A DNA stretch of 64,000 bases from Paenibacillus riograndensis SBR5 (GTDB taxonomy: Bacteria > Bacillota > Bacilli > Paenibacillales > Paenibacillaceae). The stretch spans positions 2,123,001 to 2,187,000 of the forward strand of contig NZ_LN831776.1 of NCBI RefSeq assembly GCF_000981585.1, in the 5' to 3' direction. Below the pieces are notes generated by a model, which searched no databases, was not told where the DNA came from, and saw only the letters and a program-made list of their open reading frames with translations. Made by a program: the position numbers and the translations under genes. Positions 31,268-48,639 of the stretch are shown one piece after another (position 1 is the first letter of the stretch; each line of letters starts with the position of its first letter).

Positions 31268-31450
31268 GCCCTTATAAGGACGGCCTAGCTGTTTCTACTT
31301 GTTTTGTCCCGTTTTTTACGGGTAAGACCCGTTTTATCCCTTAATGTTCTGGCTGGCCGGAGGCTATAATGTGAATGTGGCCGGCAGGTCACAGACTTAC
31401 GGCACACACTCGCATGAGGGGTAGCTGCACAAATGAGGGGGATATACACA

Positions 31451-32776: not shown

Positions 32777-32791
32777 ACCGGAATCTGCCGG

Positions 32792-32816
32792 ACCCCTGCG
32801 GCCTTCGCCCAGGGGT
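32792..32816 (+). terminator. Intercistronic hairpin after the binding-protein gene
   Basis: ACCCCTG (32792-32798) pairs with CAGGGGT (32810-32816), without a T run. Such hairpins between binding-protein and permease genes usually protect or attenuate the transcript, so binding protein exceeds permease. Confidence 0.5.
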
Positions 32817-32850
32817 TCAGCTTTAACGGAACAAGGAGGGAAAGAACCGC

Positions 32851-33729
32851 ATGAATAAATACCTGGGAAATAAATCGGCGCTGGCGCTGTTTCTGCTCCC
32901 TGCCCTGTTGTTATATAGCGTGATCCTTATTTATCCTGTGCTGCAGACCGTTGTCCGAAGTTTTTACGATTGGGACGGGCTGAGCACGGCAGCCTTCTCG
33001 GGAATTGCCAATTACCGCGAGCTGTTTAACGATCCTTTGCTCTCAACTTCCCTGAAAAACGGGCTGATCTTTGCCCTGGTGCTGGCTGGATTCCAGATTG
33101 GACTTGGTACGGTACTGGCGCTCGTATGCGCCAATCCGCGGACCCGCGGACGCAAGCTGCTGAAGACTGCTTATTTCATCCCCGTGGTGCTGTCGGTAAC
33201 GGTTGTCTGCCAATTGTGGATCGCCATGTACGACCCGACCAACGGTCTTGTGAATAAGCTTTTCGAGCTGCTGAATATTCCCTACCGGCAGAATTGGCTG
33301 AGCTCACCGACTCAGTCGATCATTGCCATCGCTTTTGTAAACGCCTGGCAGTTTATGGGCTATCAGTTCTCCCTGCTGTATGCCGGCGTCAAGGCTGTTC
33401 CGGAGGATTACTTCGAGGCCGCGACCATCGATGGCTGCGGAAAGTGGCGGGCGCATTGGCATGTTACGCTGCCGCTGATGCGGGAAACGTATAAATTCTG
33501 CTTCACCATCGCGATCACCTCCGGGATCGGCGCGTTCGTACAGATGCTGATCATGACCAATGGAGGCCCGGGCACCACCAACTACACGATGACCTTCATG
33601 ATTTACCGGTATGCCTTTATGGAGAGTAACTACGGATACGCATGCGCCGTATCGGTATTGCTGGTGCTGATCTCGCTCATTGCGACGGTTGTAATCAACA
33701 AGGTGTTCGACCGTGGACAGAATGCATAA
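32851..33729 (+). CDS. Sugar ABC transporter permease, UgpA/MsmF type
   Basis: A 292-residue integral membrane protein with about six membrane segments (first: LALFLLPALLLYSVILIYP). The ATPase-contact EAA loop is clear: FEAATIDGCGKWRAHWHVTLP begins near residue 190. ATG start with AAGGAGG. It pairs with the following permease to form the membrane channel of the importer. Confidence 0.94.
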   Translation: MNKYLGNKSALALFLLPALLLYSVILIYPVLQTVVRSFYDWDGLSTAAFSGIANYRELFNDPLLSTSLKNGLIFALVLAGFQIGLGTVLALVCANPRTRGRKLLKTAYFIPVVLSVTVVCQLWIAMYDPTNGLVNKLFELLNIPYRQNWLSSPTQSIIAIAFVNAWQFMGYQFSLLYAGVKAVPEDYFEAATIDGCGKWRAHWHVTLPLMRETYKFCFTIAITSGIGAFVQMLIMTNGGPGTTNYTMTFMIYRYAFMESNYGYACAVSVLLVLISLIATVVINKVFDRGQNA

Positions 33730-33752
33730 TGGAAAGGAGAACCATAAACCAT

Positions 33753-34595
33753 ATGAGCCCAAAAACATTCCGGTCCATCGGGCAGTTCCTGTTGCAAATT
33801 CCGTTGTGGCTGTATTTTGCCGTATCCATCTATCCGCTGTTCTGGATGATTTCATATTCCCTGAAGAACAATGACGAAATTTTCGTTACCAATCCGTTTG
33901 GCCTGCCGACTCATTTTCGTTTCGAGAACTATATCAATGCCTGGACGCAGTTCAATATTCCACGTTACTTTTGGAACAGCTTTGTCGTTTCCATCATATC
34001 CACAGTCTTCATTCTGCTTCTGGCGCTTATGTTCGCCTTTGCCGTGGCCCGGATGCAGTGGAGATTCCGCTCGGCTGTCAGAACTTACATGCTTGTCGGT
34101 ATGTTCATGCCGCTGCAGGTGATTATGATCCCGCTTGCGCTGCTGGTCCGGGATTTCCATCTCACCAACACCTACGGGGCTCTTATTATTCCCTACATTG
34201 CCATCGGCCTGCCGTTCTCAACCATGGTGTTCTACGGCTTCCTGGTCAGCATTCCCCGGGAAATTGAAGAGGCAGCCTGCATCGATGGTGCAAGTATTTA
34301 CCGGCTGTTTCTCGGGGTCATCCTGCCGCTGGCGCTGCCGGCTATCGCAACGATTGCCATCTTCCAGTTCCTGAACAACTGGAATGAGTTCACTCTGGCG
34401 TACATTCTAATCTCGGACGAGAACATGAAGACACTGCCGCTGGGATTGCTTTTCTTCCAGGGCTCGTACAGTACCGACTGGGGAGCAATGGGGGCGGTCA
34501 TGACTATTGCATCGCTTCCGATGGTACTGGTCTATCTGCTTCTCAGCGATCAGGTGGAGCGGGCCATGACGGTAGGCTCAGCGGTAAAAGGATGA
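33753..34595 (+). CDS. Sugar ABC transporter permease, UgpE/MsmG type
   Basis: A 280-residue permease with six predicted membrane segments and the EAA loop EEAACIDGASIYRLFLGVI. The frame is open upstream to 33642, but the AAAGGAGA site at 33734-33740 favours the ATG at 33753, 24 bp after the previous stop. Second half of the importer channel. No clear terminator follows before the repeat-rich gap. Confidence 0.92.
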   Translation: MSPKTFRSIGQFLLQIPLWLYFAVSIYPLFWMISYSLKNNDEIFVTNPFGLPTHFRFENYINAWTQFNIPRYFWNSFVVSIISTVFILLLALMFAFAVARMQWRFRSAVRTYMLVGMFMPLQVIMIPLALLVRDFHLTNTYGALIIPYIAIGLPFSTMVFYGFLVSIPREIEEAACIDGASIYRLFLGVILPLALPAIATIAIFQFLNNWNEFTLAYILISDENMKTLPLGLLFFQGSYSTDWGAMGAVMTIASLPMVLVYLLLSDQVERAMTVGSAVKG

Positions 34596-35161: not shown

Positions 35162-36427
35162 CTATCTATAGCCCCGAATGATCTTAAGCTTGGTGGAGGT
35201 ATATAAGGCGAACAGGAGCAGCAGCAGTCCAATGGACCCCATAACAGGGCCGGGACTGAAATGATCCGAGAGATAGGAGACAACGGATAGGCCGATTGAT
35301 GGAGCCACACTCATAATCGACCCCAGTACCCCAAAGACTCTGCCCTGGATTTCTTCGGAAATTTCCAGCCTGAGGACGATGTTGATAAGGAGTGTGCAGA
35401 ACGAGAACATGAATCCGATCAGCAGCACCACGGGAATGGCTGCAGCCGCAGAAGTGATGAAGGATAACAGGATATACATCGGGCCCAGACAGAGCAGGCC
35501 GGTCATAATGAGTAATCCCCGCCGTCTGATTTTGGAGCCCAGAATCATAATCAGGCCTGAGCCGACCATATAGCCGAGCGGGATACAAGCTTCCATAAGC
35601 CCGAACTGAAAGGGACTGGACTTCCAGACGTTGACGGCCATGACCTGGGTCAGCATCATTGAGGGCATGAAGAATAGAGTGAGCGTCGGAAGCATAATGA
35701 TGACGGCCTTGGCAAAGGGGAATTTCCAGATATAACGTATGCCTTCTCCAAGGTCCTGAATAAATTTCTTTTTCTGTTGGGGCTCTGGATTGGCGCGTGC
35801 CGGCATCGGCAGGGAACGGACAGCAAGAACGAGCAGGAAGGAGACCAGAAACGTGGCTCCGTCGAATAAAATGGCATCCGCCGCTCCGAAAGCCGCTACG
35901 AAGATTCCGCCTACGGAAAAGCCAACCGTCCGGCAGATGTTCTCCGACAGGTTAAGCATGCCAACGGCTTGCTGGACATGCTCTTTGCCGACAACGGTGA
36001 CAATGGAGGACTGATAGGCAGGGGACTGGAAAAGGGCTGACACCGTAGTTAGCGCTGTAAGCACAGCTACAATAATGAAGGAAGCCGAAGGAACAGAGAG
36101 GACGAGGGCAAGGGTGACTACCAGTGAGCAGCTGACCAGATCTGTAATCAGCATGATCTTTCTGCGGTTGGTCCGGTCCGCGAACGTTCCTCCAATGGAC
36201 CCGAGCAGCGAGCTGAGCAACAGGTTAATAATCGTCAGTACAGCCACCAGTTTGGCGCTGCCGGTGGTCTGGAGCACCCAGAGACTAAGGGCGATGCTGT
36301 GAAAAGTATTGCCGAACAGGGAAATGGAAAAAGAGCAGAGCAGCAGCATGAATTTTTTGTTGGCCCACAGTTTTGGATAGGAGTGTACCGCAGGGGCTGC
36401 CTGGCTGGCTATAACGGGTTCTGTCAT
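35162..36427 (-). CDS. Major facilitator superfamily exporter
   Basis: A 421-residue protein with about 12 membrane helices, beginning with KKFMLLLCSFSISLFGNTFH and carrying the loop motif GGTFADRTNRRKIM between helices 2 and 3. This is the drug/siderophore efflux (MFS_3, macrolide-efflux-like) branch. The start has a textbook AAAGGAGG site. A perfect 22-bp palindrome lies 14 bp upstream, and the LacI gene that probably binds it is immediately upstream on the same strand. I infer that it exports the product, or an intermediate, of the seven-gene cluster transcribed the other way. Confidence 0.9.
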   Translation of the reverse strand: MTEPVIASQAAPAVHSYPKLWANKKFMLLLCSFSISLFGNTFHSIALSLWVLQTTGSAKLVAVLTIINLLLSSLLGSIGGTFADRTNRRKIMLITDLVSCSLVVTLALVLSVPSASFIIVAVLTALTTVSALFQSPAYQSSIVTVVGKEHVQQAVGMLNLSENICRTVGFSVGGIFVAAFGAADAILFDGATFLVSFLLVLAVRSLPMPARANPEPQQKKKFIQDLGEGIRYIWKFPFAKAVIIMLPTLTLFFMPSMMLTQVMAVNVWKSSPFQFGLMEACIPLGYMVGSGLIMILGSKIRRRGLLIMTGLLCLGPMYILLSFITSAAAAIPVVLLIGFMFSFCTLLINIVLRLEISEEIQGRVFGVLGSIMSVAPSIGLSVVSYLSDHFSPGPVMGSIGLLLLLFALYTSTKLKIIRGYR

Positions 36428-36440
36428 GTTTATCCTCCTT

Positions 36441-36462
36441 TCAACTTAAGCGCTTAAGTTGA
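36441..36462. promoter_or_regulatory. Perfect LacI-type operator in front of the MFS gene
   Basis: A perfect 22-bp palindrome, each half TCAACTTAAGC, with the central AAGCGCTT pattern of LacI-family operators. It sits between the LacI stop and the MFS ribosome site, where bound repressor would block initiation or read-through. A matching site stands before the divergent cluster at 37.52 kb. Confidence 0.88.
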
Positions 36463-36475
36463 CGGTCAAAAAAAA

Positions 36476-37387
36476 TTAGTCTACATAATAACAGTTATTC
36501 TCTTGCTCGGAGTAGTCCGGATGGTACAACAGCTCTTGCATGAGTTCAAATGCGACCTCCGCTTTGTCCCCCTGAAAAAGAATCTTCTCTACACGCTCCC
36601 CCAGCATTTGCGGGGAATTGCAGGTGCAGATTACGGTCAGATGCTCAAAATCTCCAGACTTCTCCACATAGCTGCCAATGAATTCATTGATCACAATCGC
36701 CTGCTTGAAGCGGTGATGAGCCGTCGCCGAAAGCAGATCCTGAAGCTCGCGGATTTCGAAGACTGCATCGTCAGACAGAGGAACACAGCTGCGGATATAG
36801 CGGGTAAGGAGTGAATTATTGAAGCTCTCCATAATCAAACAGACCTGCGACAGATCGTCCGGCAGAGCCTTTTCAAGCGCTGAACGGTAATTGTACACCA
36901 CCTGCTTGAACAGCTTATCTTCAATCATGCTGTCGATCAGGATCAGGGGAATGCCCTCGACAAAGTGTCTGGAAATCGAGTAGAAGGAGGCGTCCTGTGC
37001 ATCGATGAGAAACACGGCTTCCAGCTTGCGTTCCACGATAATGTCCAGCGAAGGGTTGCCGGTATCCAGAGAATAGAGCAGCGTATGATAACCGGCTGCT
37101 GTAAGCCGCTGCTCCAAAGTATGAATGAAGGCGAGCTGGGCATGCAGCTTCCAGTAAGGCAACTGCCTGGATCTGTGGACCAATACACCTACCAGACCGG
37201 TTTTTTGGTTGGCGAGTGAACGGGCTGCCAGATTCGGAATATAATGCAGCTCTTCGGCCAGCTGCAGGATCTGGCGGCGTGTCTTTTCAGGAATGGTCTG
37301 ATTATCCACACGATTCAGCACATAGCTTACGGTGGCAACGGATACGTTGGCCCGGATGGCGATGTCCTTCATAGTTGTTTTTTTCAA
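36476..37387 (-). CDS. LacI family repressor of the MFS gene and the divergent seven-gene cluster
   Basis: A 303-residue regulator: helix-turn-helix and hinge (TMKDIAIRANVSVATVSYVL), the conserved AARSLANQKTG linker, and a shortened sugar-binding-like domain that diverges from the classical family towards the end. It starts at TTG 37387, eight bases after AGGAGA. Operators fitting this family lie on both sides of the gene (36441-36462 and 37521-37538). The family binds a small effector, usually a sugar; the unusual C-terminal half suggests an unfamiliar ligand. Confidence 0.9.
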   Translation of the reverse strand: MKKTTMKDIAIRANVSVATVSYVLNRVDNQTIPEKTRRQILQLAEELHYIPNLAARSLANQKTGLVGVLVHRSRQLPYWKLHAQLAFIHTLEQRLTAAGYHTLLYSLDTGNPSLDIIVERKLEAVFLIDAQDASFYSISRHFVEGIPLILIDSMIEDKLFKQVVYNYRSALEKALPDDLSQVCLIMESFNNSLLTRYIRSCVPLSDDAVFEIRELQDLLSATAHHRFKQAIVINEFIGSYVEKSGDFEHLTVICTCNSPQMLGERVEKILFQGDKAEVAFELMQELLYHPDYSEQENNCYYVD

Positions 37388-37490
37388 CAGCCCAATCTCC
37401 TATCTGTCAATTTCCTAAAGATTAACATTAGCTTAGCCCGGGAGTCAATCCTCGAAATTCGTGTCATAAAAAACCTTTTATTTCTTGGTA

Positions 37491-37540
37491 TTGATATAAT
37501 ATGTAAATTATTGTAGTATCAGCTTAATCGGTTAAGTCTA
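37491..37540 (+). promoter_or_regulatory. Promoter and LacI operator of the seven-gene cluster
   Basis: A good sigma-A promoter is visible: TTGATA (37491-37496), 17 bp, TAGTAT (37514-37519). Directly after the -10 lies AGCTTAATCGGTTAAGTC (37521-37538), with inverted CTTAA/TTAAG arms spaced exactly as in the perfect operator at 36441. A repressor there would block transcription start. The first gene begins at 37586 after GGGAGG. Confidence 0.75.
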
Positions 37541-37585
37541 CCGATTGTTGTCTATCCTTTACTCTATTACGGGAGGCGGTTATGC

Positions 37586-38728
37586 ATGGACAATGTGGTG
37601 TTGTATCCCTTCAACAAGATTACGCAAGGGATCATCAGGTTCAGGGATTTAACAGATTTTACGGTAAGGGCGGTTATTGATTTTGTCCTGCATAAGGGTA
37701 AAGACGCAGCTGAACTGGTGGAAGGCCAAGCGGCAGGAATTCCAATTACGGACAATTTTGAAGAGATGTTCGGCATTGCGGATACCCTGATTCTGAATGA
37801 TCCGGGAACTTCGTTCGGAAATAACGAAGGCGTATACGGCGAGCATAACCTCAGTCAGCTGTGGAGATTGCTGGTTGCCTCTGCCCATGAGCATAAGCTG
37901 AGAATCATCAGTGTGCATGAAATTATTGACCGCCCTACCCTGGATTGGTTGCTTAAGAATGGAATTACGATTGAGATTCTGCCGCAAATCCCCGCAAGTC
38001 TGCAGCACCGGCTCCATACAGAATATATATTTCCTTCCCCTGGAGATGAAGTAGCCACTTATTTATCCTATTTTGATATAGACGCACAAATAACCGCTTA
38101 TAACCGCAATATATGCAAGGTGGGGATATTCGCAACAAGAGGCTGCCTCGGAAAGTTCACGGCTCAAATGTCATTGTTCCGGGCTCTTCGGCAGGCAGGA
38201 GAGAAGGTCCAGGCGATTATAACCGAGCCTACGGCTGCGCTCTTCAACCAGCCGGGCGGTGATATCATGAAATTTATTGCCCATAATCCGCTGAACCAAT
38301 ATCCGTACTACATTCACGCGGCTGTCCGGGAAGCGGAGAGCACAGGCTGTGATTATGTCCTGTTGTCAGGTCAAGGTTCGTTGCTCCCGAATGAGAATTT
38401 CGTGATTGCAGCAACCAAAGTCTCTTATTTACGGGCCTTGCAGCCGGACTTGACGATCCTGATTGCAGGCTACGATGATGATGAGCAGATCAGAGACAGC
38501 CTCGATATTCTCCGCATTTACGGAAATGCCAGCCGGCCGTTTGCTATTCTGATTCCGGATAAATACGAGGTTGATTTTGGAGAATACATCTCGAAGACCC
38601 CGGAGGAAATAGAGCAGCGCAAGGAAGAAATCCGCAGCCGCTTTGATGCCGCGCATGTGGAATCGGTGCTGGACATTGGCAGGCTGGCAGGCAAGCTGGC
38701 TAACTATAAAAAGACTGTCAGATTATGA
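37586..38728 (+). CDS. DUF1611 family P-loop protein, first of a tandem pair
   Basis: A 380-residue cytoplasmic protein of the DUF1611 family, an N-terminal Rossmann-like domain joined to a P-loop domain like dethiobiotin synthetase. The phosphate loop is visible as ATRGCLGKFT (about residues 183-192), a variant of the usual G-x-D-C-x-x-GK-T. Residues GQGSLLPN later are also family-typical. One characterised relative, DgcN, acts in D-glutamate catabolism as an N-acyltransferase; I do not assume the same reaction. ATG start with GGGAGGCGG. It is the first gene after the LacI-controlled promoter, with a paralogue 19 bp downstream. Confidence 0.85.
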   Translation: MDNVVLYPFNKITQGIIRFRDLTDFTVRAVIDFVLHKGKDAAELVEGQAAGIPITDNFEEMFGIADTLILNDPGTSFGNNEGVYGEHNLSQLWRLLVASAHEHKLRIISVHEIIDRPTLDWLLKNGITIEILPQIPASLQHRLHTEYIFPSPGDEVATYLSYFDIDAQITAYNRNICKVGIFATRGCLGKFTAQMSLFRALRQAGEKVQAIITEPTAALFNQPGGDIMKFIAHNPLNQYPYYIHAAVREAESTGCDYVLLSGQGSLLPNENFVIAATKVSYLRALQPDLTILIAGYDDDEQIRDSLDILRIYGNASRPFAILIPDKYEVDFGEYISKTPEEIEQRKEEIRSRFDAAHVESVLDIGRLAGKLANYKKTVRL

Positions 38729-38747
38729 TCCGGGGGAGGCGGCGAAG

Positions 38748-39887
38748 ATGAAGAGAGTTGTACTGTATCCCTTCAATAAAATCACGCAGGGCCTGCTGCG
38801 TTTCCGTGACCTGCTGGACGTCGAGATCGTATCGGTCATCGACTTTGTGGAGGAAGACGGGCAGGATGCCGGAGCGCAGGTGGACGGGAAGCATTCGGGG
38901 ATTCTGATCCATTCGTCGATGGCAGACGGTCTGAAGGACGCGGACACCCTGATTCTGAATGATCCCGGCACCACTTTTGGCGGGAATTCAAGTGTATTCG
39001 CTGAACATGATCTTGCCGGATTATGGCGGGAATTGGTCTTATACGCATCCGGCCGGGGCTTAAAGGTGGTCAGTGTGCATGAAATTTATGACCGGGCTAC
39101 CCTGGACTGGATGGCGGAGCAGCAAATACAGATCGATGTGGTTCACAGCCCCAGGGAGCAGCTTTTTCAGGAGATGGATAAGCGCTATGGCACGGGCGGA
39201 ACGGATATTGAGCGCTATCTGGAACAGTTCGAAAAGGAAGCTTTGATGTTTTCCCGTCCCAGATCAATTAAGAGAGTCGGGATTTTTGCCACCCGGGGTT
39301 GCATCGGGAAGTTTACCGTACAGATGAATCTCTACAGGCAATTCGCAGCGGAGGGCATTCCGGCGACAGCTTTCATCACAGAGCCGACCGGGTTCCTGTT
39401 CGGGCAGCCTGAAGGGGATATCTTCAAGTTCCTGGCACAACGCCCGTTGGAGCAGTATCCGTACTATATCGATACTGTGATTCATCATGCCCAGGACAGC
39501 GGCAGTGACTGGATCATTATGGCGGGGCAAAGCTCCATTCTTCCCACTATGAATATAGCGTTCAATTCTCTGAGATATGCGATGCTGCGGGCATTTGATC
39601 CGGAATATGTTCTGCTGATTGCCGATTATGATGATGACGGCGCCATTCATGATGCGATTGAAATGTTAAGAATCTACTCCAGACGGCCGCTTGCCCTGCT
39701 GCTGCCGGATAAGCTGGAAACCTCTTACGGGCAATACGAAATCTATCCCCACGAACGGAGAATGGCCCGGAAGCTTGAACTGGAACAGAAATTTCAAATT
39801 CATGTCCTCTTCATCGAACAGGCGGAAGCGGCGCTGAACCTTCTCCTGGAGGAAGCGGATGCCATTCCGGCCGGTTCTGGTAAGTAA
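38748..39887 (+). CDS. DUF1611 family P-loop protein, second of a tandem pair
   Basis: A 379-residue paralogue of the preceding protein, colinear along its whole length (shared VVLYPFNKITQG start, LILNDPGT, HEI-DR-TLDW). The P-loop is ATRGCIGKFT near residue 180, and GQSSILPT matches GQGSLLPN of copy one. ATG 38748 follows GGGGGAGG. The stable side-by-side pairing, with clear sequence divergence, suggests either a heteromer or two related reactions (for example acylation of two substrates). Neither copy shows a broken motif. Confidence 0.85.
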   Translation: MKRVVLYPFNKITQGLLRFRDLLDVEIVSVIDFVEEDGQDAGAQVDGKHSGILIHSSMADGLKDADTLILNDPGTTFGGNSSVFAEHDLAGLWRELVLYASGRGLKVVSVHEIYDRATLDWMAEQQIQIDVVHSPREQLFQEMDKRYGTGGTDIERYLEQFEKEALMFSRPRSIKRVGIFATRGCIGKFTVQMNLYRQFAAEGIPATAFITEPTGFLFGQPEGDIFKFLAQRPLEQYPYYIDTVIHHAQDSGSDWIIMAGQSSILPTMNIAFNSLRYAMLRAFDPEYVLLIADYDDDGAIHDAIEMLRIYSRRPLALLLPDKLETSYGQYEIYPHERRMARKLELEQKFQIHVLFIEQAEAALNLLLEEADAIPAGSGK

Positions 39888-39889
39888 TT

Positions 39890-40993
39890 ATGCTGCATCC
39901 GGGCGAATGCATCTATCAGATTGTCACCGACCGGTTCTGTGAAGGCAATCCCGCAGGCCTGCCTGTAGTGTACTATGGAACCGAGCAGTACATGAGCGGT
40001 GGAGATGATCCCCACAACCGTGCCATGATGAGCTCCTTCAGCAGGGAGACAACGGCCTACCGGCTTGTGGCGCAGCTTAATCGCTTAAGAGCCTGTAATC
40101 TTGCGATTGGTTATGGCAGTACGAAGCTGCTGTATGTCAATTCGGGGGTGCTGGTATTCGAGCGCAGCTGCAAGAGGGATGTGGCACTGATCCTAATTAA
40201 CCAGGAAGACAATGCGCAAATTCTGCCTTCATTGGCAACTTCGCTGCCGCAAGGTGCTTACTCCAGCCTCCTTAAGGATATTTATCCAGACCACCCGGCG
40301 GTTGCGGGAGCCGAAGGAGACATGCAGAATGTAATGCTGGCACCGCGGTCTGCCTTTGTCTATTCTTATGAGTCTGATCTTGAGAAGCCGGCAGCCGTCC
40401 ATGTCTATCCCAAAGCAGCGGCGCCGGGAAGCGAGTTTATAATCCGGGGCAGACATTTGGGCGATACCGGCTGTCTGACGGTTGGCGGCTGTGAGGCGGC
40501 TGTAATCTCATGGCAATCCGGGAAGATCGTTGCCAGGGTTCCGGCGGTTCCGGCAGGCGTACATCCTGTACAGGGTCTGTCAGAAGGGGGGCAGAAGTTC
40601 CGGCTCCCGGAAGAACTGAAGGTGTGGACAGGAATGCTGGTTACGGTAAGGCTGGTGCTCAAGAACGTACACACTGATTTTGATACCCGGGTCTATGTGA
40701 CGGGGAATGTGTATGAGCTTGGAGCCTGGCAGGCGGAGAGGGCGGCAGGGCCATTTTACAACCAGATCGTCTACCGGTATCCAACCTGGTATTGCGATAT
40801 CAGCCTGCCGGCGGATTCCCGGATCGAGTTCAAAATTATGCTTAGGAGCGGCTCCGGAATGATGCGCTTGGAGCAGGGAGAGGCTCATTGCTTTCATACA
40901 CCTGCGGAGGGAGTATCCGAAATAATAGCGGAGTGGCAGGGAGCCTGCCAGGAATCCTTTCAATTGTCCGAAGGAGATGCTGCATATGGATGA
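39890..40993 (+). CDS. Cyclodextrin-glucanotransferase-like protein lacking the catalytic barrel (domain C - TIG - CBM20)
   Basis: A 367-residue protein with no signal peptide. Its first 20 residues match the start of a GH13 cyclodextrin glucanotransferase (IYQIVTDRFCEGNPAG), then it jumps directly to the end of the catalytic domain (LPVVYYGTEQYMSGG). About 330 residues, including all three catalytic carboxylates, are missing in frame. The rest is intact: beta-sandwich domain C, an IPT/TIG domain (about 155-235), and a CBM20 starch-binding domain (about 245-350; TGNVYELGAW, YRYPTWY). One CBM20 sugar-stacking tryptophan appears replaced by leucine. The gene starts 2 bp after the previous stop and is overlapped by the next, so it is translated within the operon. 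It may be a cytoplasmic glucan-binding scaffold or a decaying gene. Confidence 0.85.
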   Translation: MLHPGECIYQIVTDRFCEGNPAGLPVVYYGTEQYMSGGDDPHNRAMMSSFSRETTAYRLVAQLNRLRACNLAIGYGSTKLLYVNSGVLVFERSCKRDVALILINQEDNAQILPSLATSLPQGAYSSLLKDIYPDHPAVAGAEGDMQNVMLAPRSAFVYSYESDLEKPAAVHVYPKAAAPGSEFIIRGRHLGDTGCLTVGGCEAAVISWQSGKIVARVPAVPAGVHPVQGLSEGGQKFRLPEELKVWTGMLVTVRLVLKNVHTDFDTRVYVTGNVYELGAWQAERAAGPFYNQIVYRYPTWYCDISLPADSRIEFKIMLRSGSGMMRLEQGEAHCFHTPAEGVSEIIAEWQGACQESFQLSEGDAAYG

Positions 40994-41420
40994 GAGACTG
41001 CAGTTTGACGGAACACACCTGACCTTTCAAACTGCGCTGGATGAAGAGAGAAGACGGCTGATTGCCTGGCATTTTAAAAGCAGCTGGCTTGAGCTGCAGC
41101 AGGCTGTCCGGCTGACCACTCTCTCTTCCGAGAATAAATTTGCGCAGTTTCTGTTCCCGGTGGACAGGCCGCTCGGGCAAACGCTGGAGATGCGGGTTCC
41201 GAGGCCGGGCAGCCGCTACTATTACGCGGATTTAGGGATTATTAAAAAAGTGCAAACGTTTGTACCAATTTTGAGATCTAATGTGTTATTTATTTGTGAT
41301 GACGGCAGCCCGATGTATTCGGACTGGTTCTCCTTCCAAAGAGATCATGCTTCGCCTCCGCTGCTGGAGCAAAATACATGGTGGGAATTCTTCACGGGGT
41401 ATTCACTTTCTGCACATTGA
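40986..41420 (+). CDS. Small protein of unknown function between CGTase-like and GT4 genes
   Basis: A 144-residue soluble protein that I do not recognise. It is rich in aromatic and charged residues, with no signal peptide or membrane segment. The ATG at 40986 overlaps the previous gene by 8 bp and follows AAGGAG at ten bases; an ATG at 40977 is too close to that site. The next gene starts 21 bp later. Beta-rich composition (FKSSWLELQQAVRL; LEMRVPRPGSRYYYADLG) would fit a small carbohydrate-binding or assembly factor, but this is a guess from composition and context. Confidence 0.7.
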   Translation: MDERLQFDGTHLTFQTALDEERRRLIAWHFKSSWLELQQAVRLTTLSSENKFAQFLFPVDRPLGQTLEMRVPRPGSRYYYADLGIIKKVQTFVPILRSNVLFICDDGSPMYSDWFSFQRDHASPPLLEQNTWWEFFTGYSLSAH

Positions 41421-41441
41421 GAGATTCGGAGGGGACAACCT

Positions 41442-42620
41442 ATGCAATCAAGCACATCTGTCTTAATCCTGTCCTGGGAGTATCCGCCTGTGGTGATCGG
41501 AGGAATGGCCCCGCATGTCTATGAATTGTCCAGGCATTTGGCCTGCGGGCCGGCCGAGGTCCATGTAATTACCAATAGCGCCCCAGGACGGCCCGTTCTG
41601 GAAGTGGAGAACGGCGTATACGTGCACCGTGTGAATTCTTATGAGAACTTGACCGATTTCGAGGATTGGGTGCTTGAGTTCAATCTGGCAATTGTAGATT
41701 ACGTTGCCTCCCGGCTCAGCGGGAACGTAAGGCTTGATCTTATTCATGCGCATGATTGGCTGGTCGGCTATGCCGCCCTTCTGCTGCATCAGCGGCTGGG
41801 ATTACCGCTTGTGACAACGATCCATGCTACAGAGTTTGGGAGGAATCAGGGGTTGTTCACGCCTCAGCAGCACATGATTCATGCCATCGAGCATGAACTG
41901 GTCACTTCGTCAGACAAGGTCATTGTATGCAGCATGCATATGCAGCGGGAGGTCTGCACTGTGCATGGTCTTGACAAGTCCAGGACGGAGATTATCCCTA
42001 ACGGCATTGATCTCTGTTCGTTGGAGCTGATTCCGGCGCATTCCTTCAGAAGGGAGCATTACGCGCAGGATGGCGGCAAGATCGTCCTGTTCATTGGAAG
42101 ACTGGTGAAGGAAAAAGGGGTACAGGTGCTGCTGCAAAGTATACATGAGGTGCTGCGCGAATTCCCGCACTGCACCTGTATTATCGCAGGCCGGGGACCG
42201 ATGTCCGCCGAGCTTGAGGACCGTGCGGCTGAGCTGGGGACAAGCATACGCTTCACCGGCTTCGTAGACAGCCAGGAGAAAAGCTTTCTGCTCCAGCTTG
42301 CCGATGTCTGTGTATTTCCCAGTTTGTATGAGCCCTTCGGCATTGTGGCGCTGGAAGCGATGGGGAGCGGTACACCGGTAATTGTGTCAGAAGCGGGAGG
42401 GCTGGCCGAGATTGTTGAGCATGGGCGGACCGGACTCACCAGCATGTCCGGAGACCCTGGCATGCTGGCGGCCCGGATTCTGCAGCTGCTCCGTGACCCT
42501 GATGAGGGAAGTCTGCTTGCGGAAGCAGCCCGGAGGGAAGTTCTGCTGCGGTATGATTGGCAGCCCATTGCGGACAGAACCGGAGAAGTCTATTCCACGC
42601 TGAGCGGCGTGAGATTATAA
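41442..42620 (+). CDS. GT4 family retaining glycosyltransferase, glycogen-synthase-like
   Basis: A 392-residue GT-B enzyme. The N-terminal domain starts with SWEYPPVVIGGMAPHV, the glycine-rich acceptor loop of GT4/GT5 glucan synthases, with HAHDWLVG following. The C-terminal nucleotide-sugar domain has FIGRLVKEKGVQ and the E-x7-E motif EPFGIVALE. It transfers a sugar, probably glucose from a nucleotide donor, with retention of configuration. ATG start with GAGGGG. In this operon it could glycosylate the cluster product or extend an alpha-glucan that the CBM20-bearing neighbour binds. Confidence 0.88.
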   Translation: MQSSTSVLILSWEYPPVVIGGMAPHVYELSRHLACGPAEVHVITNSAPGRPVLEVENGVYVHRVNSYENLTDFEDWVLEFNLAIVDYVASRLSGNVRLDLIHAHDWLVGYAALLLHQRLGLPLVTTIHATEFGRNQGLFTPQQHMIHAIEHELVTSSDKVIVCSMHMQREVCTVHGLDKSRTEIIPNGIDLCSLELIPAHSFRREHYAQDGGKIVLFIGRLVKEKGVQVLLQSIHEVLREFPHCTCIIAGRGPMSAELEDRAAELGTSIRFTGFVDSQEKSFLLQLADVCVFPSLYEPFGIVALEAMGSGTPVIVSEAGGLAEIVEHGRTGLTSMSGDPGMLAARILQLLRDPDEGSLLAEAARREVLLRYDWQPIADRTGEVYSTLSGVRL

Positions 42621-42637
42621 GGAAGGGAAGATGCCGG

Positions 42638-43876
42638 ATGACATCTTTTATAACGCTCAAGGAAGAGATTATTGATCTATCGCTCTGCGCGTCTTGCGGA
42701 TTGTGCGCTGCAGTATGTCCCCAAGGCCTGCTTGCGATGAACGGCGATTCCGTTTCGCTTCCGGTCTTTCAGGGTCTGGAGAGCCAGGCGGAGGACACCT
42801 GCGGCAGCTGCAATCTCTGCTCGGAGGTGTGTCCGGGCTATGATACAGGTGTGATGGAATCCGAGCGGCGCATCTTTGGCCGCAACCGTTCGGAGCTTGA
42901 ACGCTGGACCGGTATCTACTTATCTACCCATCAGTTTTCGGCGGCGGACCCGGAAATTCTCGGCCGGGCGGCAGCCGGCGGGGCGGGAACGATCCTGGCG
43001 GTTACCGCGCTGGAGGAGAAGCTTGCTGACGCAGTGATTGTTGTGGGGAGAGATGAGGAGCGTCCCTGGGTACCGAAGGCCTACCTGGCCGATTCGGTGG
43101 AACGGATTATCGAGTGTGCGCAGACCAGCTACTGCATCACTCCCAACCTGGATCTGCTGCAGGATGACAGATATGACAAGATCGGCATTATAGGCGTGCC
43201 TTGCCAGATTCAAGGAATCCACAAGCTGCTGAATCTGCCGGAGCACTTGCCGTCCTCTGTGCTGGCAGACAAAGTGGCGTTCACGATTGAGCTGGGCTGC
43301 GCCTCCAGCACCTCACTGGGCGGTACCGAGCATCTGATTACGGAGATTTTGGGGATTGAATTGGCTGACGTTGCTGTGATGCGCTACCGGGAGGGGCAAT
43401 ATCCGGGGCAATTCATGGTCAAGACCCGGCAGGGGCAGGAGCATTATCTGCCTTTTTACCGGCTGGTGGAGGAATTCAAAAAGTTCAAAACCTTCCGCTG
43501 CCTCGCTTGCCCGGACTGGTGGTCAGGGATCGCCGATATTTCGATTTCGGATGGAGATCCTAATATTTTTGATTCCAGCAAAGAAGGAATATCTGCTAAG
43601 GCATCCTCCACGGTAATGGTGCGAACGAAAACAGGGGCCCGCCTGCTTGAGCTTGCGGTGCGCCGGAATGCGGCCCGGCTGGTCGATTACACGTTTGATA
43701 ATAATCTTGGACTGGAGCGGAAACGGCAGCGGTACCGCAGCTATGCGGCGATGGGCGACCGGCGGATTCCGCTGGCTCCCGGCAGAGATATGGATTATTC
43801 GCAAATACTCTCCGATGACGAGGTGATCAGAATTGGGATTGGTCCGAAACAGGGTCGGCCTGCCGGCCAAATGTGA
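42638..43876 (+). CDS. FrhB-like [4Fe-4S] flavoprotein (coenzyme F420 hydrogenase/dehydrogenase beta-subunit family)
   Basis: A 412-residue protein. Two ferredoxin-type clusters are visible at the N-terminus: Cys 17, 20, 23, 27 (CASCGLCAAVCP) and Cys 55, 58, 61, 65 (CGSCNLCSEVCP). The FrhB/FdhB catalytic fold follows, with IIGVPCQIQGIHKL and the late FRCLACPDW...ISDGDPN block. Relatives use FAD and iron-sulfur centres to move electrons to or from F420, ferredoxin or organic substrates; in Firmicutes they often sit in polysaccharide or antibiotic loci without any F420 system. ATG 42638 is chosen within a longer open frame. The next gene overlaps its end by 44 bp, implying coupled function. Confidence 0.88.
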   Translation: MTSFITLKEEIIDLSLCASCGLCAAVCPQGLLAMNGDSVSLPVFQGLESQAEDTCGSCNLCSEVCPGYDTGVMESERRIFGRNRSELERWTGIYLSTHQFSAADPEILGRAAAGGAGTILAVTALEEKLADAVIVVGRDEERPWVPKAYLADSVERIIECAQTSYCITPNLDLLQDDRYDKIGIIGVPCQIQGIHKLLNLPEHLPSSVLADKVAFTIELGCASSTSLGGTEHLITEILGIELADVAVMRYREGQYPGQFMVKTRQGQEHYLPFYRLVEEFKKFKTFRCLACPDWWSGIADISISDGDPNIFDSSKEGISAKASSTVMVRTKTGARLLELAVRRNAARLVDYTFDNNLGLERKRQRYRSYAAMGDRRIPLAPGRDMDYSQILSDDEVIRIGIGPKQGRPAGQM

Positions 43877-45203
43877 TTTGCAGATTAAGGCGAAGCGGGA
43901 GGTGTGCTCCTTCGAATTCCATTCGGTTCCGGGAGACAAATCCATCTCCCAGCGGGCCATTGTCCTGAACGCTATCGCCGAAGGCCAAGGTACGGTGTAC
44001 AATGTGCTGCGTTCCCGTGACATTGAGAGCTGCATCACGATTCTGCGCCAATTGGGTGTAAGGATTGCCTGGAATGGGGATGAGCTGTCCGTGCATGGAC
44101 AAGGGCTGCGGGGCCTGCAGGCACCGGCTGGCAGGCTTGAGGTCGGGAATACGGCCACTTCGGCCCGTTTGATGTTGTCTGTACTGGCGGGACAGTCCTT
44201 TGCAGCGGAACTGGGCGGGAACGCACTGCTCTCGGCAAGACCCATGGACTGGGTTGTTCAGCCGCTGACGGATATGGGGGCGGTGATTGAATATCTTGGG
44301 GCCAAAGGCTGCCTGCCTTTGCGGATACAGGGAGCGTCCCCATTGTCCCCTATAGACATGGAAGCCACTGTATTCAGCGCACAGGAAAAGTCAGCCCTGC
44401 TGTTCGCGGGATTATATGCAGAGGGAATCACACGTTACCGGCAACGCTGCCAAAGCCGGGATCACACCGAACGCCTGATGCATTATTTCGGCATAGATAT
44501 TCATTCCGATAACGATGTTACCTTCCTGAAGGGAGGGAATGCCTTCTGCGCCAAGGATGTAATGGTTCCCGGTGATATGTCCTCGGCGGCTTTTCTGCTG
44601 GCTGCATACGCTATTCGGGGAGTGGACCGCAAGGGCAGCCTGCTGATCAAGCAGGTGGGTGTCAATCCAACCCGGAGCGGGTTCATCCGGCTGCTTGCAG
44701 AGATGGGACTTCATTTGACGCTGCAAGCGGAAGCGGAGCTGATCTCCGGGGAACCGGTCGCAGATATCTACTGCACACCGGGAACCCGGTTGTCCTCTGT
44801 CTTAGCTGAAGGCAACGGGCGCATACAGAGCCTGATTGACGAAGTTCCTTTGCTGGCAGCGGTATCGGCATTTGCGGAAGGGAACACTGTGATCCGCGAT
44901 TGCGGGGAATTAAGAGACAAGGATACGAACCGGATTCAGACCACCGCAGGGGTGCTAAAAGCTTTTGGCGTGGAAACCTCCTGCAGTGATGACGAGATGG
45001 TCATTCATGGCGGCCGGCCTCTATCCCCTGCCATCGTAAACAGCTGTGGTGATCACCGGATCGCCATGACCGCCGCTGTATTGGCCAGCAGCTTGGATGA
45101 GCCTTCGATCATCCGCAACTGCGGCTGTATCAACGTTTCCTATCCGGGCTTCGTAGAGGATCTTTCGCAGTTTGCGCATATCGATGTTTTGCCCGCAGAA
45201 TGA
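43833..45203 (+). CDS. AroA-like enolpyruvyl transferase (EPSP synthase family), atypical active site
   Basis: About 440-456 residues with the full two-domain EPSP synthase fold. Conserved blocks: VPGDKSISQRA, GNTATSARLM, ALLFAGLYAEGIT, SRDHTERL, VPGDMSSAAFLLAA, LRDKDTNRI and GDHRIAM. Several positions differ from housekeeping AroA: His to Gln after SIS, Ala where E. coli has Gly96, and Asp and Asn in the usual LR-KE-DR motif. The family transfers enolpyruvate from phosphoenolpyruvate to a hydroxyl. No other shikimate genes are nearby, so a specialised acceptor is likely. The start is uncertain: TTG 43833 or TTG 43878, neither with a strong site, but overlap with the FrhB-like gene suggests coupling. 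A strong terminator follows. Confidence 0.87.
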   Translation: MGLVRNRVGLPAKCDLQIKAKREVCSFEFHSVPGDKSISQRAIVLNAIAEGQGTVYNVLRSRDIESCITILRQLGVRIAWNGDELSVHGQGLRGLQAPAGRLEVGNTATSARLMLSVLAGQSFAAELGGNALLSARPMDWVVQPLTDMGAVIEYLGAKGCLPLRIQGASPLSPIDMEATVFSAQEKSALLFAGLYAEGITRYRQRCQSRDHTERLMHYFGIDIHSDNDVTFLKGGNAFCAKDVMVPGDMSSAAFLLAAYAIRGVDRKGSLLIKQVGVNPTRSGFIRLLAEMGLHLTLQAEAELISGEPVADIYCTPGTRLSSVLAEGNGRIQSLIDEVPLLAAVSAFAEGNTVIRDCGELRDKDTNRIQTTAGVLKAFGVETSCSDDEMVIHGGRPLSPAIVNSCGDHRIAMTAAVLASSLDEPSIIRNCGCINVSYPGFVEDLSQFAHIDVLPAE

Positions 45204-45228: not shown

Positions 45229-45263
45229 CCCGGCACTGTAAGATACGGTGCCGGTTTTTTTTG
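45229..45263 (+). terminator. Terminator of the seven-gene cluster
   Basis: CCGGCACTGT (45230-45239) pairs with ACGGTGCCGG (45245-45254), one wobble, followed by eight T. Classic intrinsic terminator 26 bp after the AroA-like stop. Confidence 0.92.
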
Positions 45264-46007: not shown

Positions 46008-48326
46008 CTATTCCGCCTGCTCCTTCCTCTGGGAGAGCAGCCGGTCTGCTGCCTGCTGCTGCCGGTATTGTCCGGGAGTTTGCCCTGTCCGGGCTTTGAA
46101 GATCTTATTGAAGTAGCTTACATTCGCATACCCGACATCCCGGCAGATCTCCTCGATGGTCAGATCGAGCTGCAGCAGTTCCATGGCCCGCTTGATCCGC
46201 AGCTGGATTAAATAATCGTTAATCGTCATCCCTGTAGACTCCTTGAAGATACGGCTTAGATAGGAGGAGCTGCGCTGCACGTGTTCAGCAACCGTGTCTA
46301 CAGAAATATTTTTATTAAAATTGACATCCATATAATCCGTTGCCAGCTGCAGGGTCACATCCGTCATCTTCGAACGTTTCTCCTTGTGGTAGGCGATGAT
46401 CCTGCCGCACATGTCCAGCAGGCACTCTTCCATATCCGGCAGCGTTTCCGCACGCGACAGCACATCTGCGTAAGCCGGTCTGTCCCCGAAGACGGCGGAC
46501 ATGTCGCCACGGGTCTGGACAAGCGTCTTCATGATCTCCCCGCTCAGCTGAAAAAACAGCTGCTGGATATTCGCCTTCCCCAGCTTTCTGTCAATCGCCG
46601 TCCGGGTGATTTGCCGGATGGCACCAAAGCATTGCTCCTTGTCTGTCTGCAGCAAGGCCTGGAGCAGCTTCGTTTCCAGCTCATACGGATAATAATAAGC
46701 TTCTTCCTGTGACTTCCAGTCGCCCAGGATGCCGTATGGCAGAATTTCGCCCTTGCCGATGTACATTTTCAGATTGAGTGCTTCCAGGGTATCTTCGTAG
46801 GCTGAGCACACGCTTTGCTCACCGCTATAATTCCGGCTGACGGCAATGGTCACGTTCAGGCTGTAGCGGGTCAGCAGAAGCTGCTTCAGCCGCTTGGCCT
46901 GCTCCAGCGGGAAGTCGTCCTCCTCCGCAGGAACGTTCAGCAGGATGACGGTCCGCTTGTCATCCTTGGCGAAGATTTCGCCGTCGATATCGGCTCCGAG
47001 CTCTTCCATAAGCCCATAACGGAACAGATAGAACTGGATGCCGTCAGGCCCTTTTACCGGATAAGGCTCTTCCAGCTCAAGGGTCAGTACGGCAAACCGG
47101 GTGAAATCCAGCCGGAGCCCCAGCAGCTCCGCTGCCTGATCTGTGCTGTCTCCCTGGATGAGGCCGTTCAGATATTTCTCCTTGATCGCTGTATGGTTAT
47201 CGGTCAGAAGGGAATCCACCTTCCGCTTCTCTGTCATCAGGGTTTCCCAGTTGCGGACCAGCTGATCATAGATATGACGGATGAAGCCCGCTTCGTCGCC
47301 GGCGGGAAGAGGGCTGCCTGATCCGCCCCGCTGGCCGGCCTCGGAACCGCCGATATAGGAGATCACGCTCTGCAGCGGGCGGTACAATCTTCTGGACAAA
47401 TAAAAAGAAATCGCAAATGCCACCGTCAGGTAGGTAGCCGCAACAGTGACGACAATGAACTTGATCCGGTCCATCCCTTGCAGAAGACTGGAGCGTTTGG
47501 TAATATCAACGAATCTCCAGCCTGTCAGTTCCGAGGTGGTGTAAGAAACGATCCGGTCGGAATCATCCATATAGTAGCCGCTTCCGCCGGTCAGGCGGGC
47601 AGGGTCCAGCTGCGCCAGCAGGGAATCCCCGTCAGCAGAATCGGAATAGAGCAGCTCAGAATGGGGCCCTAATACAAGAGTGGCGCCTTTTTTATTATGG
47701 TAATGGCTCAAATAGTCGTCGAACAGCAGCTGCAGCTTCAGATTCATAACGATGGCGCCGTTCACCTGACCGATTAACGGCATCTTTTGCAGCAGGCTGG
47801 CGGCAGGCTGATCCGGCTCGAAGCCGTCCATCCGTCCGGTTAACCAGAGCGTGCGGTTGTCGGACTGCTGCTTCCAGACTTCCAGCCAGGAGCGGTCGGC
47901 AAAAGTGGAGATAGGAGAGGTCCGGATTTCGGGACGCGATGTCAGGACAAGCTCCAAAGGAGCGTAATACAAATAGATGGAATCAATGTAGGGACTGATT
48001 TTTTTCTGCGCCTCCACAAAATTGGATAAATCAATCATGGAGCTTACACTCAGCTTGCCGCTGCCATTAGTATGGTACAGATACGACTGGGTTGTGATCA
48101 TGCCGGAGGCGGCATATTTGATCGCGGTCAGCTCTTTGTGAATAAGTTCCTGCTGCTGGGTCAGGATCGATTCATTGTATGCGATGGCATTCTGGATGCT
48201 GTTGTCCGCCGAAATGGAATAAGTGACCGTGGAGATGAGAATGACGGTGATCACGGCAATTGCGGTCAAGGAAAGAAGCAGCTTGACGAACATCGTGTTA
48301 TGTTTGATCGAGCGGTATCCCGGCAA
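46008..48326 (-). CDS. Membrane-bound AraC family regulator with extracellular sensor
   Basis: About 772 residues: a membrane segment near the N-terminus (LLSLTAIAVITVILISTVTYS), an extracellular region of roughly 240 residues, a second membrane segment (FIVVTVAATYLTVAFAISFYL), a long cytoplasmic linker domain, and a C-terminal AraC double helix-turn-helix (SSYLSRIFKESTG; VGYANVSYFNKIFKARTG). Such one-protein sensors activate neighbouring sugar operons in Paenibacillus. I start at TTG 48326, eight bases after GGAG; the frame is open to 48377 but without a site. It is divergent from the transporter operon at 48.6 kb and probably controls it and the beta-helix gene. Confidence 0.9.
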   Translation of the reverse strand: MPGYRSIKHNTMFVKLLLSLTAIAVITVILISTVTYSISADNSIQNAIAYNESILTQQQELIHKELTAIKYAASGMITTQSYLYHTNGSGKLSVSSMIDLSNFVEAQKKISPYIDSIYLYYAPLELVLTSRPEIRTSPISTFADRSWLEVWKQQSDNRTLWLTGRMDGFEPDQPAASLLQKMPLIGQVNGAIVMNLKLQLLFDDYLSHYHNKKGATLVLGPHSELLYSDSADGDSLLAQLDPARLTGGSGYYMDDSDRIVSYTTSELTGWRFVDITKRSSLLQGMDRIKFIVVTVAATYLTVAFAISFYLSRRLYRPLQSVISYIGGSEAGQRGGSGSPLPAGDEAGFIRHIYDQLVRNWETLMTEKRKVDSLLTDNHTAIKEKYLNGLIQGDSTDQAAELLGLRLDFTRFAVLTLELEEPYPVKGPDGIQFYLFRYGLMEELGADIDGEIFAKDDKRTVILLNVPAEEDDFPLEQAKRLKQLLLTRYSLNVTIAVSRNYSGEQSVCSAYEDTLEALNLKMYIGKGEILPYGILGDWKSQEEAYYYPYELETKLLQALLQTDKEQCFGAIRQITRTAIDRKLGKANIQQLFFQLSGEIMKTLVQTRGDMSAVFGDRPAYADVLSRAETLPDMEECLLDMCGRIIAYHKEKRSKMTDVTLQLATDYMDVNFNKNISVDTVAEHVQRSSSYLSRIFKESTGMTINDYLIQLRIKRAMELLQLDLTIEEICRDVGYANVSYFNKIFKARTGQTPGQYRQQQAADRLLSQRKEQAE

Positions 48327-48639
48327 TGCACTCACTCCACTTCTTAAGATGATTACGCTTTCAAATTCAAGCGGCAAAAACGAAACATCAATACGGGGAT
48401 TATATCACAGAAGTGTCCTCCGGGAAGGGGAAGCCGGAAAAACATTAAAAAAACAGAAAAACATAATGCGGTTTCAGCCGCAGAAGTGGCCAAAAACATA
48501 AAAAGAATCGAAACAGAGGATTGTGTACCTTGGCGGAGAAGCTTATCGTAAATGTTGTAACCGCTACCATCACCCGGACCAAAGCCGGGCGGCGGTGAAC
48601 ATGGCGGTGAACATACTTGTTTTAATAGGGGGACTACCA
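48327..48639 (+). other. Divergent intergenic region before the LplABC-type operon
   Basis: This 313-bp gap carries the promoters of the AraC regulator and the transporter operon. Apart from a cre-like site near 48556 I see no gene or clear palindrome in it. Confidence 0.4.
48556..48569. promoter_or_regulatory. Candidate CcpA cre site upstream of the transporter operon
   Basis: TGTAACCGCTACCA matches the consensus TGWAANCGNTNWCA at 13 of 14 positions. It lies about 70-85 bp before the binding-protein start, fitting glucose repression of a carbohydrate operon. Confidence 0.5.

Follow-up and report, generated by a model that had tools for sequence, protein, structure and literature searches.

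A LacI-controlled Paenibacillus gene cluster with a DUF1611 pair, an FrhB-family flavoprotein and a divergent EPSP synthase: a candidate biosynthesis-and-export operon

The stretch of DNA analysed here (the window) comprises 64,000 nucleotides, positions 2123001-2187000 of the one-contig 7.92-Mb genome of Paenibacillus riograndensis SBR5, which has P. graminis and P. jilunlii as near relatives, judged by named relatives. It carries seven plus-strand genes packed with overlaps or short gaps (37586-45203 by open reading frame (ORF) calls), encoding in order two DUF1611 proteins (D1 and D2), the remnant of a cyclodextrin glucanotransferase (CGTase), a protein of 147 aa, a GT4 glycosyltransferase, an FrhB-family iron-sulphur (Fe-S) flavoprotein and AroA, a 5-enolpyruvylshikimate 3-phosphate (EPSP) synthase, after which comes a terminator; the genes for a LacI-family regulator and a major facilitator superfamily (MFS) exporter are opposite in orientation. 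On balance, we lean towards reading this locus as an operon dedicated to making a small metabolite from a shikimate-pathway intermediate and exporting it. The reading is drawn from sequence, and we arrive at it because the core is strictly kept, the exporter has been swapped for another, the operators are dedicated, and the EPSP synthase is a second, remodelled copy. The system itself is the core (the DUF1611 pair, FrhB and AroA) together with export. Pfam recognises both DUF1611 proteins, the C-terminal part of the CGTase (TIG and CBM20), the GT4 enzyme, the N- and C-terminal FrhB domains with their 4Fe-4S motifs, the EPSP synthase, the LacI regulator and the MFS protein. The initial annotation of this DNA had described seven packed genes, a strong terminator and opposed LacI and MFS genes, and this layout is borne out by the ORFs, the Pfam matches and a terminator scan, in which the site behind aroA is the best of 15 terminator-like sites (shuffles give 12.0).

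The core genes are conserved as a set. A first search with one D2 sequence (E ≤ 0.001) matched 10 of 197 family genomes, five of them with a tandem pair. A profile search built on an alignment of 20 homologues (E ≤ 1e-20 for the genus, family and order samples) found the DUF1611 pair in eight of the 100 genomes sampled from the genus and eleven of the 394 from the family, always as exactly two copies, and the order sample of 392 genomes returned the same 11. The window's own genome was the sole match in two phylum samples searched at E ≤ 1e-10 (1/398 and 1/299), and a plasmid search gave no match. The four-gene core of D1, D2, FrhB and AroA is kept in all 11 clusters of the 394 family genomes, with FrhB and AroA following the DUF1611 pair either directly or past the CGTase, 147-aa and GT4 genes, which we call the glucan module; the larger block, its CGTase often decayed, is present in eight of the 100 genomes from the genus. 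These counts bear out conserved synteny, which the initial annotation had named as a check. In the genus sample, the eight genomes with the DUF1611 pair are precisely those in which the cluster AroA and the 147-aa protein are found, and no genome has that AroA or the pair alone. Five other family genomes gave weak DUF1611-like matches that we did not count as clusters; four of these loci showed no other core gene at E 1e-5, the fifth (G159) being left out. DUF1611 homologues were also seen in Clostridia, Halonatronum and Haliovirga, as homologue matches without gene context. Comparing the window with P. graminis and a third genome (G245), we obtained ratios of nonsynonymous to synonymous substitution rates (dN/dS) of 0.07-0.18 for MFS, LacI, D1, D2, FrhB and AroA, and 0.22-0.26 for the CGTase part; GT4 and the 147-aa gene lie between, at 0.16-0.22. 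The core is thus constrained and the CGTase more weakly so, though the CGTase remnant of the window is not visibly neutral.

The strongest indication of export comes from the transporters, as an exporter from one of two unrelated families adjoins the same core in all 11 clusters, MFS in nine and MATE in two. The MFS gene lies beside D1 or LacI in 9 of the 11; its best NCBIfam match is TIGR00900, followed by EntS, all below cut-off. P. fonticola and P. macerans have no match to this gene within 19.5 kb, and in both of them a MATE gene of the same orientation follows aroA after 36-60 bp, scoring 177 and 170 bits against TIGR00797 (cut-off 147). Production and export had been proposed for this locus in the initial annotation, and the replacement of MFS by MATE beside an unchanged core strengthens that proposal.

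Control of the cluster also appears to be its own. LacI-type operators had been claimed at both promoters, with a perfect copy at the exporter, and the claim holds: operator O1 (ACTTAAGCGCTTAAGT), at the MFS promoter, is a palindrome without mismatch, and O2 (GCTTAATCGGTTAAGT), directly 3' of the operon's -10-like box, has one mismatch. No other site in the 7.9-Mb genome comes within one mismatch. In all eight clusters that have this LacI, the MFS-side operator has no mismatch and the operon-side operator at most two, and neither is found at up to two mismatches in any of the three clusters without it. Since both sites recur in this pattern, we do not regard them as chance. A two-mismatch site by itself carries no weight, because the genome has 7 of these against 34 for a reversed control pattern, and the -35/-10 boxes, of which there are 10 between 34000 and 46500 against 11.1 expected, do not by themselves exceed chance. 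The LacI gene itself is present in 8 of the 11 clusters, and two of the other three have different LacI-family genes close by, with products 29-30% identical along part of their length. A LacI helix-turn-helix (HTH) domain and predicted palindromic operators are both present here; for an effector domain of the periplasmic-binding-protein-like kind, Pfam gave no match at E ≤ 0.01 beyond the HTH, and partial NCBIfam matches reach residue 175. Taken together, the operator sites point to a predicted repressor dedicated to this locus. A weaker, candidate third site lies within the CGTase coding sequence, and near-matches with two or three mismatches occupy the same gene position in five of the six loci that keep that stretch (besides the window, L053:11198, L055:8456, L019:8606 and L018:9998), the site being absent in Paenibacillus sp. 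HW567. It is perhaps an auxiliary operator for DNA looping, and the match may partly reflect plain protein conservation.

The cluster AroA is the second EPSP synthase of its genome. The genome has another AroA (G000:C1:3424027) with 375 bits against TIGR01356 and a Gly at the Gly96 position (GNAGAVLR). This other copy is only distantly related to the cluster AroA (26% identity), and with it in the genome the latter is probably not needed for housekeeping. The idea that the cluster gene is itself the housekeeping copy was considered and rejected, given the above-cut-off AroA at C1:3424027. By eye, that other gene (L059, L061:8896-10263) sits between a small minus-strand rhodanese-like ORF and a GNAT-like ORF. 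Viral contigs contain five EPSP-synthase loci, at 36-38% identity.

We aligned the cluster AroA with the best 120 of its 7997 homologues (121 rows). The window and its 18 best matches (P0052-P0069, at least 43% identity) all carry Ala at the position of E. coli Gly96 and Asp at that of Glu341, whereas 95 of the remaining 102 rows have Gly and Glu, and seven have Ala and Asp (P0070, P0072, P0073, P0075, P0078, P0083 and P0090, one of them from a Dormibacteraeota metagenome-assembled genome). Within this alignment, the two changes are always paired, with 26 rows having both and 95 neither, and the pair is found in all 11 cluster AroA copies. Equivalents of K22, R27, N94, R100, R124, S169, Q171, D313, K340, R344, D384, H385 and R386 are kept in all 19 rows of the clade and that of Ser23 in 18; the catalytic acid/base Glu341 is not kept, being replaced by Asp. 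These catalytic and substrate residues, in E. coli numbering, were placed by motif in the alignment. We then built a tree from 53 of these rows, among them all 26 with the pair, and the other AroA of the genome, which has a very long branch; in this tree of 54 rows the 26 form one group, with support of 100/98 and a stem of 0.93 changes per column. The label AroA-like of the initial annotation can be refined, as alignment and tree indicate that the protein, here named AroA-AD, belongs to a distinct EPSP-synthase subfamily with a putatively remodelled phosphoenolpyruvate (PEP)/glyphosate site.

In the E. coli enzyme, the glyphosate half-maximal inhibitory concentration is reported to be 10 uM and to rise above 10 mM with the substitution G96A, and A100G, at the corresponding position of the CP4 enzyme, to render it glyphosate-sensitive again (PMC8983318). 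Glu341 is described as the acid/base that protonates PEP (PMC7144000, PMC12256929). AroA-AD may be an enzyme of the pathway, a spare target or both: the conserved shikimate 3-phosphate residues and the CP4-like Ala favour resistance, and the long stem and the Asp at the acid/base position favour new chemistry.

In an alternative that we consider unlikely, the DUF1611 pair and FrhB make an inhibitor of EPSP synthase, AroA-AD is an insensitive spare target, and the pump exports the inhibitor. It would account for the fixed Ala in every clade row and cluster locus, whose effect on glyphosate sensitivity is reported as above, for the second fixed change at the catalytic Glu341 of the same site, for the intact shikimate 3-phosphate residues, and for the constant exporter; the other AroA of the genome, with its Gly, would presumably be the sensitive copy. 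However, the length of the stem exceeds what a target-site change needs, the same pair of residues occurs in seven of 102 other EPSP synthases (best 120 of 7997 homologues), and Asp in place of the acid/base Glu341 reads equally as altered chemistry. The phrase "inhibitor of EPSP synthase" was not found among the literature matches listed, and those listed for cyclohexanecarboxylic/EPSP clusters held nothing of use.

We consider it quite unlikely that the cluster has no dedicated product and merely supports metabolism, with AroA-AD as a second EPSP synthase that raises the supply of aromatic precursors under sugar control, FrhB as a source of reduced flavin or electrons, and the MFS and MATE proteins as general pumps. 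AroA-AD does score above the TIGR01356 cut-off and keeps most active-site residues, as such a role would have it. However, a mere boost of the shikimate pathway does not explain why AroA-AD and the DUF1611 pair are never found apart in the genus sample, why the subfamily has so long and diverged a stem, or why an exporter always adjoins the core; nor did the Pfam scan find any shikimate-pathway gene other than AroA among the cluster genes.

D1 and D2 are 44% identical to each other, and D1 has a Walker-A-like motif (ATRGCLGKFT). Their match to the DUF1611 fold (2g0t, 2obn and 7xrj) extends over the whole length at 15-18% identity. The literature matches listed for DUF1611 concern Dickeya, and among them there was neither a named pathway nor a link to a biosynthetic gene cluster, which agrees with the earlier statement that no named pathway is known with this set of genes. 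FrhB has both Pfam domains of its family and two 4Fe-4S motifs (CASCGLCAAVC and CGSCNLCSEVC). It matches FrhB, FpoF and HCAR in sequence, has FrhB and HCAR as solved relatives, and reaches the cut-off of no NCBIfam model among the best 25 of 32 matches. The host is not known to make F420. The family also includes BciB, described as a vinyl reductase with FAD and Fe-S clusters that takes its electrons from ferredoxin (PMC4836224), and because of this relative the reduction of a C=C bond by FrhB is plausible, by analogy.

The genes between D2 and FrhB behave differently from the core. In the eight genus clusters, the CGTase, 147-aa and GT4 genes all sit in this position, with the CGTase in varying states. 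It is a full-length ORF of 670-686 aa in five, and the HW567 protein can be aligned with 1cyg over its full length (E 1.8e-195) and has the GH13 motifs DAAKH, GEWF and DNHD. As the full-length protein begins where the solved mature enzyme begins, there is no room for a signal peptide. In the other three clusters the gene is broken, in three different ways. The window copy has lost its catalytic domain to an in-frame deletion of 957 bp relative to P. graminis, with 7 bases at the joint shared by the alignments of its two sides, and Pfam finds no GH13 catalytic domain in it; the G240 copy has several deletions and frameshifts; and in P. jilunlii just the last 63-79 codons' worth is left. The "dead CGTase" of the initial annotation is thus right in that the catalytic domain is gone here, and needs amending in that this is a decayed gene with five full-length relatives. 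Outside these eight, P. fonticola retains small CGTase fragments without GT4 or the 147-aa gene, and P. herberti and P. macerans have none of the three within 19.5 kb of the core. The 147-aa protein has no Pfam family at E ≤ 0.01 and no hit at E ≤ 10 in a sequence search of the PDB, and its fold model is unusable (mean predicted local distance difference test, pLDDT, 42.6). The GT4 enzyme, whose nearest solved sequence relative (6tvp) is an alpha-maltose-1-phosphate synthase, scores 159 bits against TIGR02149 (cut-off 302), with no model above cut-off among the best 25 of 49. The core has MalE/F/G-like transporter genes as neighbours in P. herberti and P. macerans, joined in P. macerans by a cyclomaltodextrinase-like gene, all below equivalog cut-offs. 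The three genes between D2 and FrhB are, by sequence resemblance, an accessory alpha-glucan module, with its CGTase decaying in this strain. Because of the CGTase, the GT4 enzyme's nearest relative and the MalE/F/G-like neighbours, starch sugars are, by inference, a likely inducer or carbon source.

A small glycosylated metabolite, as first suggested for this cluster, is not supported, and since the module was not found within 19.5 kb in two clusters, is a remnant in a third, and has a broken CGTase in others, glycosylation is not needed for what the core does. The glycosyl genes were also considered as the heart of the system and rejected, having been lost or decayed where the core is kept. 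A glucosylated or alpha-glucan-linked product with the CGTase, GT4 and CBM20 remnant at its centre is accordingly very unlikely: the 147-aa protein and GT4 do accompany a whole or decayed CGTase in 8 of 11 clusters, remain open here and are under selection (dN/dS as above), GT4 resembles alpha-maltose-1-phosphate synthase and maltodextrin-type genes flank two other clusters, but P. herberti and P. macerans lack the module beside an intact four-gene core, P. fonticola has a remnant, and the CGTase is broken three ways in three of eight genus clusters.

Returning to biosynthesis and export, the scheme that we infer extends to the existence of the product, its substrates, the order of reactions, LacI binding and repression, the sugar signal and the direction of transport. 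AroA-AD would act on shikimate 3-phosphate or a close relative, FrhB would carry out a ferredoxin-driven two-electron reduction, and the two nucleotide-binding DUF1611 proteins could contribute an ATP-dependent activation or an acyl or amide transfer, after which MFS here, or MATE in two relatives, would carry the product out. The LacI-family repressor would silence operon and exporter through the two operators until its ligand arrives, which would probably be a sugar linked to starch or maltodextrin. As a special case of both this scheme and the self-resistance account, the core might produce a kind of "natural glyphosate", a natural compound that inhibits EPSP synthase, which we regard as a long shot. 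AroA-AD would then add an enolpyruvyl group to shikimate 3-phosphate, and FrhB, as kin of BciB, would reduce it in a MurA/MurB-like sequence of two steps, so that a stable lactyl compound resulted, analogous to EPSP or to its tetrahedral intermediate; D1 and D2 would activate or conjugate the carboxylate, MFS or MATE would export the compound, and the Ala/Asp pair would let AroA-AD both make and withstand it.

Several observations weigh against a dedicated biosynthetic operon. In HW567 both aroA (L052:3185-4557) and the 147-aa gene (6980-7419) are frameshifted, the other 10 cluster aroA copies being open; aroA may be dispensable there, or the frameshifts may be sequencing errors. The Ala/Asp pair may not be specific to the cluster, as seven of the 102 other EPSP synthases aligned also have it. 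The Pfam scan found no scaffold enzyme of the nonribosomal peptide synthetase or polyketide synthase type among the window's cluster genes, the functions proposed for FrhB and the DUF1611 proteins are read from family resemblance, and MFS and MATE pumps can equally be plain drug pumps. A peptide product is a further candidate: 18 of the 20 aligned D homologues match TIGR04066, a "peptide maturation system protein" (best E 4.1e-13). However, D1 and D2 reach 26.2 to 32 bits, far below the cut-off of 200, no radical SAM gene is among the window's cluster genes, and no systematic search for a precursor was made among ORFs shorter than 90 aa.

Coordinates of the features are collected in Table 1. 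To the left of the cluster (31433-34595) lie sugar-type ATP-binding cassette (ABC) transporter genes, by resemblance, and to the right (46008-48377) an AraC-type regulator with a weak Cache-like match. The flanking genes that were tested also flank the P. jilunlii cluster (L026).

Table 1. Features of the cluster in window coordinates, with related genes at other loci
Feature	Position	Strand	Remarks
MFS exporter gene, EntS/Mef-like	35162..36427	-	Pfam MFS_1 E 9.4e-36, MFS_3 E 5.2e-24
Operator O1	36444..36459		perfect palindrome, 0 mismatches; MFS promoter
LacI-family regulator, 303 aa	36476..37387	-	HTH recognised by Pfam
Promoter-like hexamers TTGATA-17-TAGTAT	37491..37519	+	consensus match
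Operator O2	37522..37537		1 mismatch; operon promoter
D1, DUF1611 P-loop protein	37586..38728	+	Pfam DUF1611 33.5 bits, cut-off 25
D2, DUF1611 P-loop protein, D1 paralogue	38748..39887	+	Pfam DUF1611 36.2 bits, cut-off 25; start codon refined to where homologues begin
CGTase remnant	39890..40993	+	about 22 N-terminal residues fused to barrel end, C, TIG, CBM20
Candidate third operator	40075..40090		inside CGTase coding sequence, 2 mismatches; weak
147-aa protein	40977..41420	+	weak DUF4912 resemblance, E 0.026, below cut-off
GT4 glycosyltransferase	41442..42620	+	Pfam; nearest solved sequence relative 6tvp
FrhB-family Fe-S flavoprotein	42638..43876	+	FrhB_FdhB_C E 6.5e-26, _N E 3.2e-18; two CxxCxxCxxxC motifs; start codon refined to where homologues begin
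AroA, AD EPSP-synthase subfamily	43833..45203	+	TIGR01356 329.8 bits, cut-off 287.25
Codon of Ala at E. coli Gly96 / CP4 Ala100 position	44154..44156	+	alignment
Codon of Asp at E. coli Glu341 position	44922..44924	+	alignment
Intrinsic terminator	45230..45254	+	11-pair stem, then TTTTTTTT (T8)
MATE efflux genes behind aroA	L021:4613-6034, L057:5536-6933		P. fonticola, P. macerans
MalE/F/G-like genes	L020:3487-7070, L057:12217-18129		P. macerans stretch with cyclomaltodextrinase-like gene

If biosynthesis and export is the right reading, some Paenibacillus divert a shikimate intermediate by a pathway not named in the literature searched for DUF1611, with the AD subfamily of EPSP synthase at its heart, and DUF1611 proteins have a function outside D-amino-acid use alongside a new reaction of the FrhB family; the cluster would also let one test directly whether natural inhibitors exist for the target enzyme of glyphosate. 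If the inhibitor scheme were true, AroA-AD would be a biosynthetic and a self-resistance enzyme at once. Even with a mundane product, the AD subfamily is a clean and cheap biochemical test of how the EPSP-synthase site can be altered.

Each component has known relatives from which it differs. The DUF1611 family includes DgcN, a D-glutamate N-acetyltransferase, and the likeness consists of Pfam scores above cut-off and a fold shared along the whole length; the difference is that here two tandem paralogues, at the low identity given above, stand beside FrhB and AroA. FrhB shares the Pfam domains and 4Fe-4S motifs of the FrhB/BciB/HCAR family, but is found here outside any hydrogenase or chlorophyll synthesis. 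The full-length CGTase of a relative matches 1cyg, a cyclodextrin glucanotransferase (GH13), and differs in leaving no room for a signal peptide, whereas the window copy has lost its catalytic domain. AroA-AD resembles class II EPSP synthases in its TIGR01356 score, its retained shikimate 3-phosphate and PEP residues and its best solved match, 3rmt (286 bits), a Bacillus enzyme; it differs in having Gly96 to Ala and Glu341 to Asp fixed together, and in being a second copy within a gene cluster. Finally, the aspterric acid type of cluster would be a parallel only if the self-resistance account is right. There, a second copy of a herbicide-target enzyme lies in the cluster, and the herbicidal natural product was found by way of this resistant spare target, the dihydroxyacid dehydratase DHAD (PMC11528067). 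The Paenibacillus cluster differs in that its target would be EPSP synthase, in being bacterial, and in being known from its genes alone.

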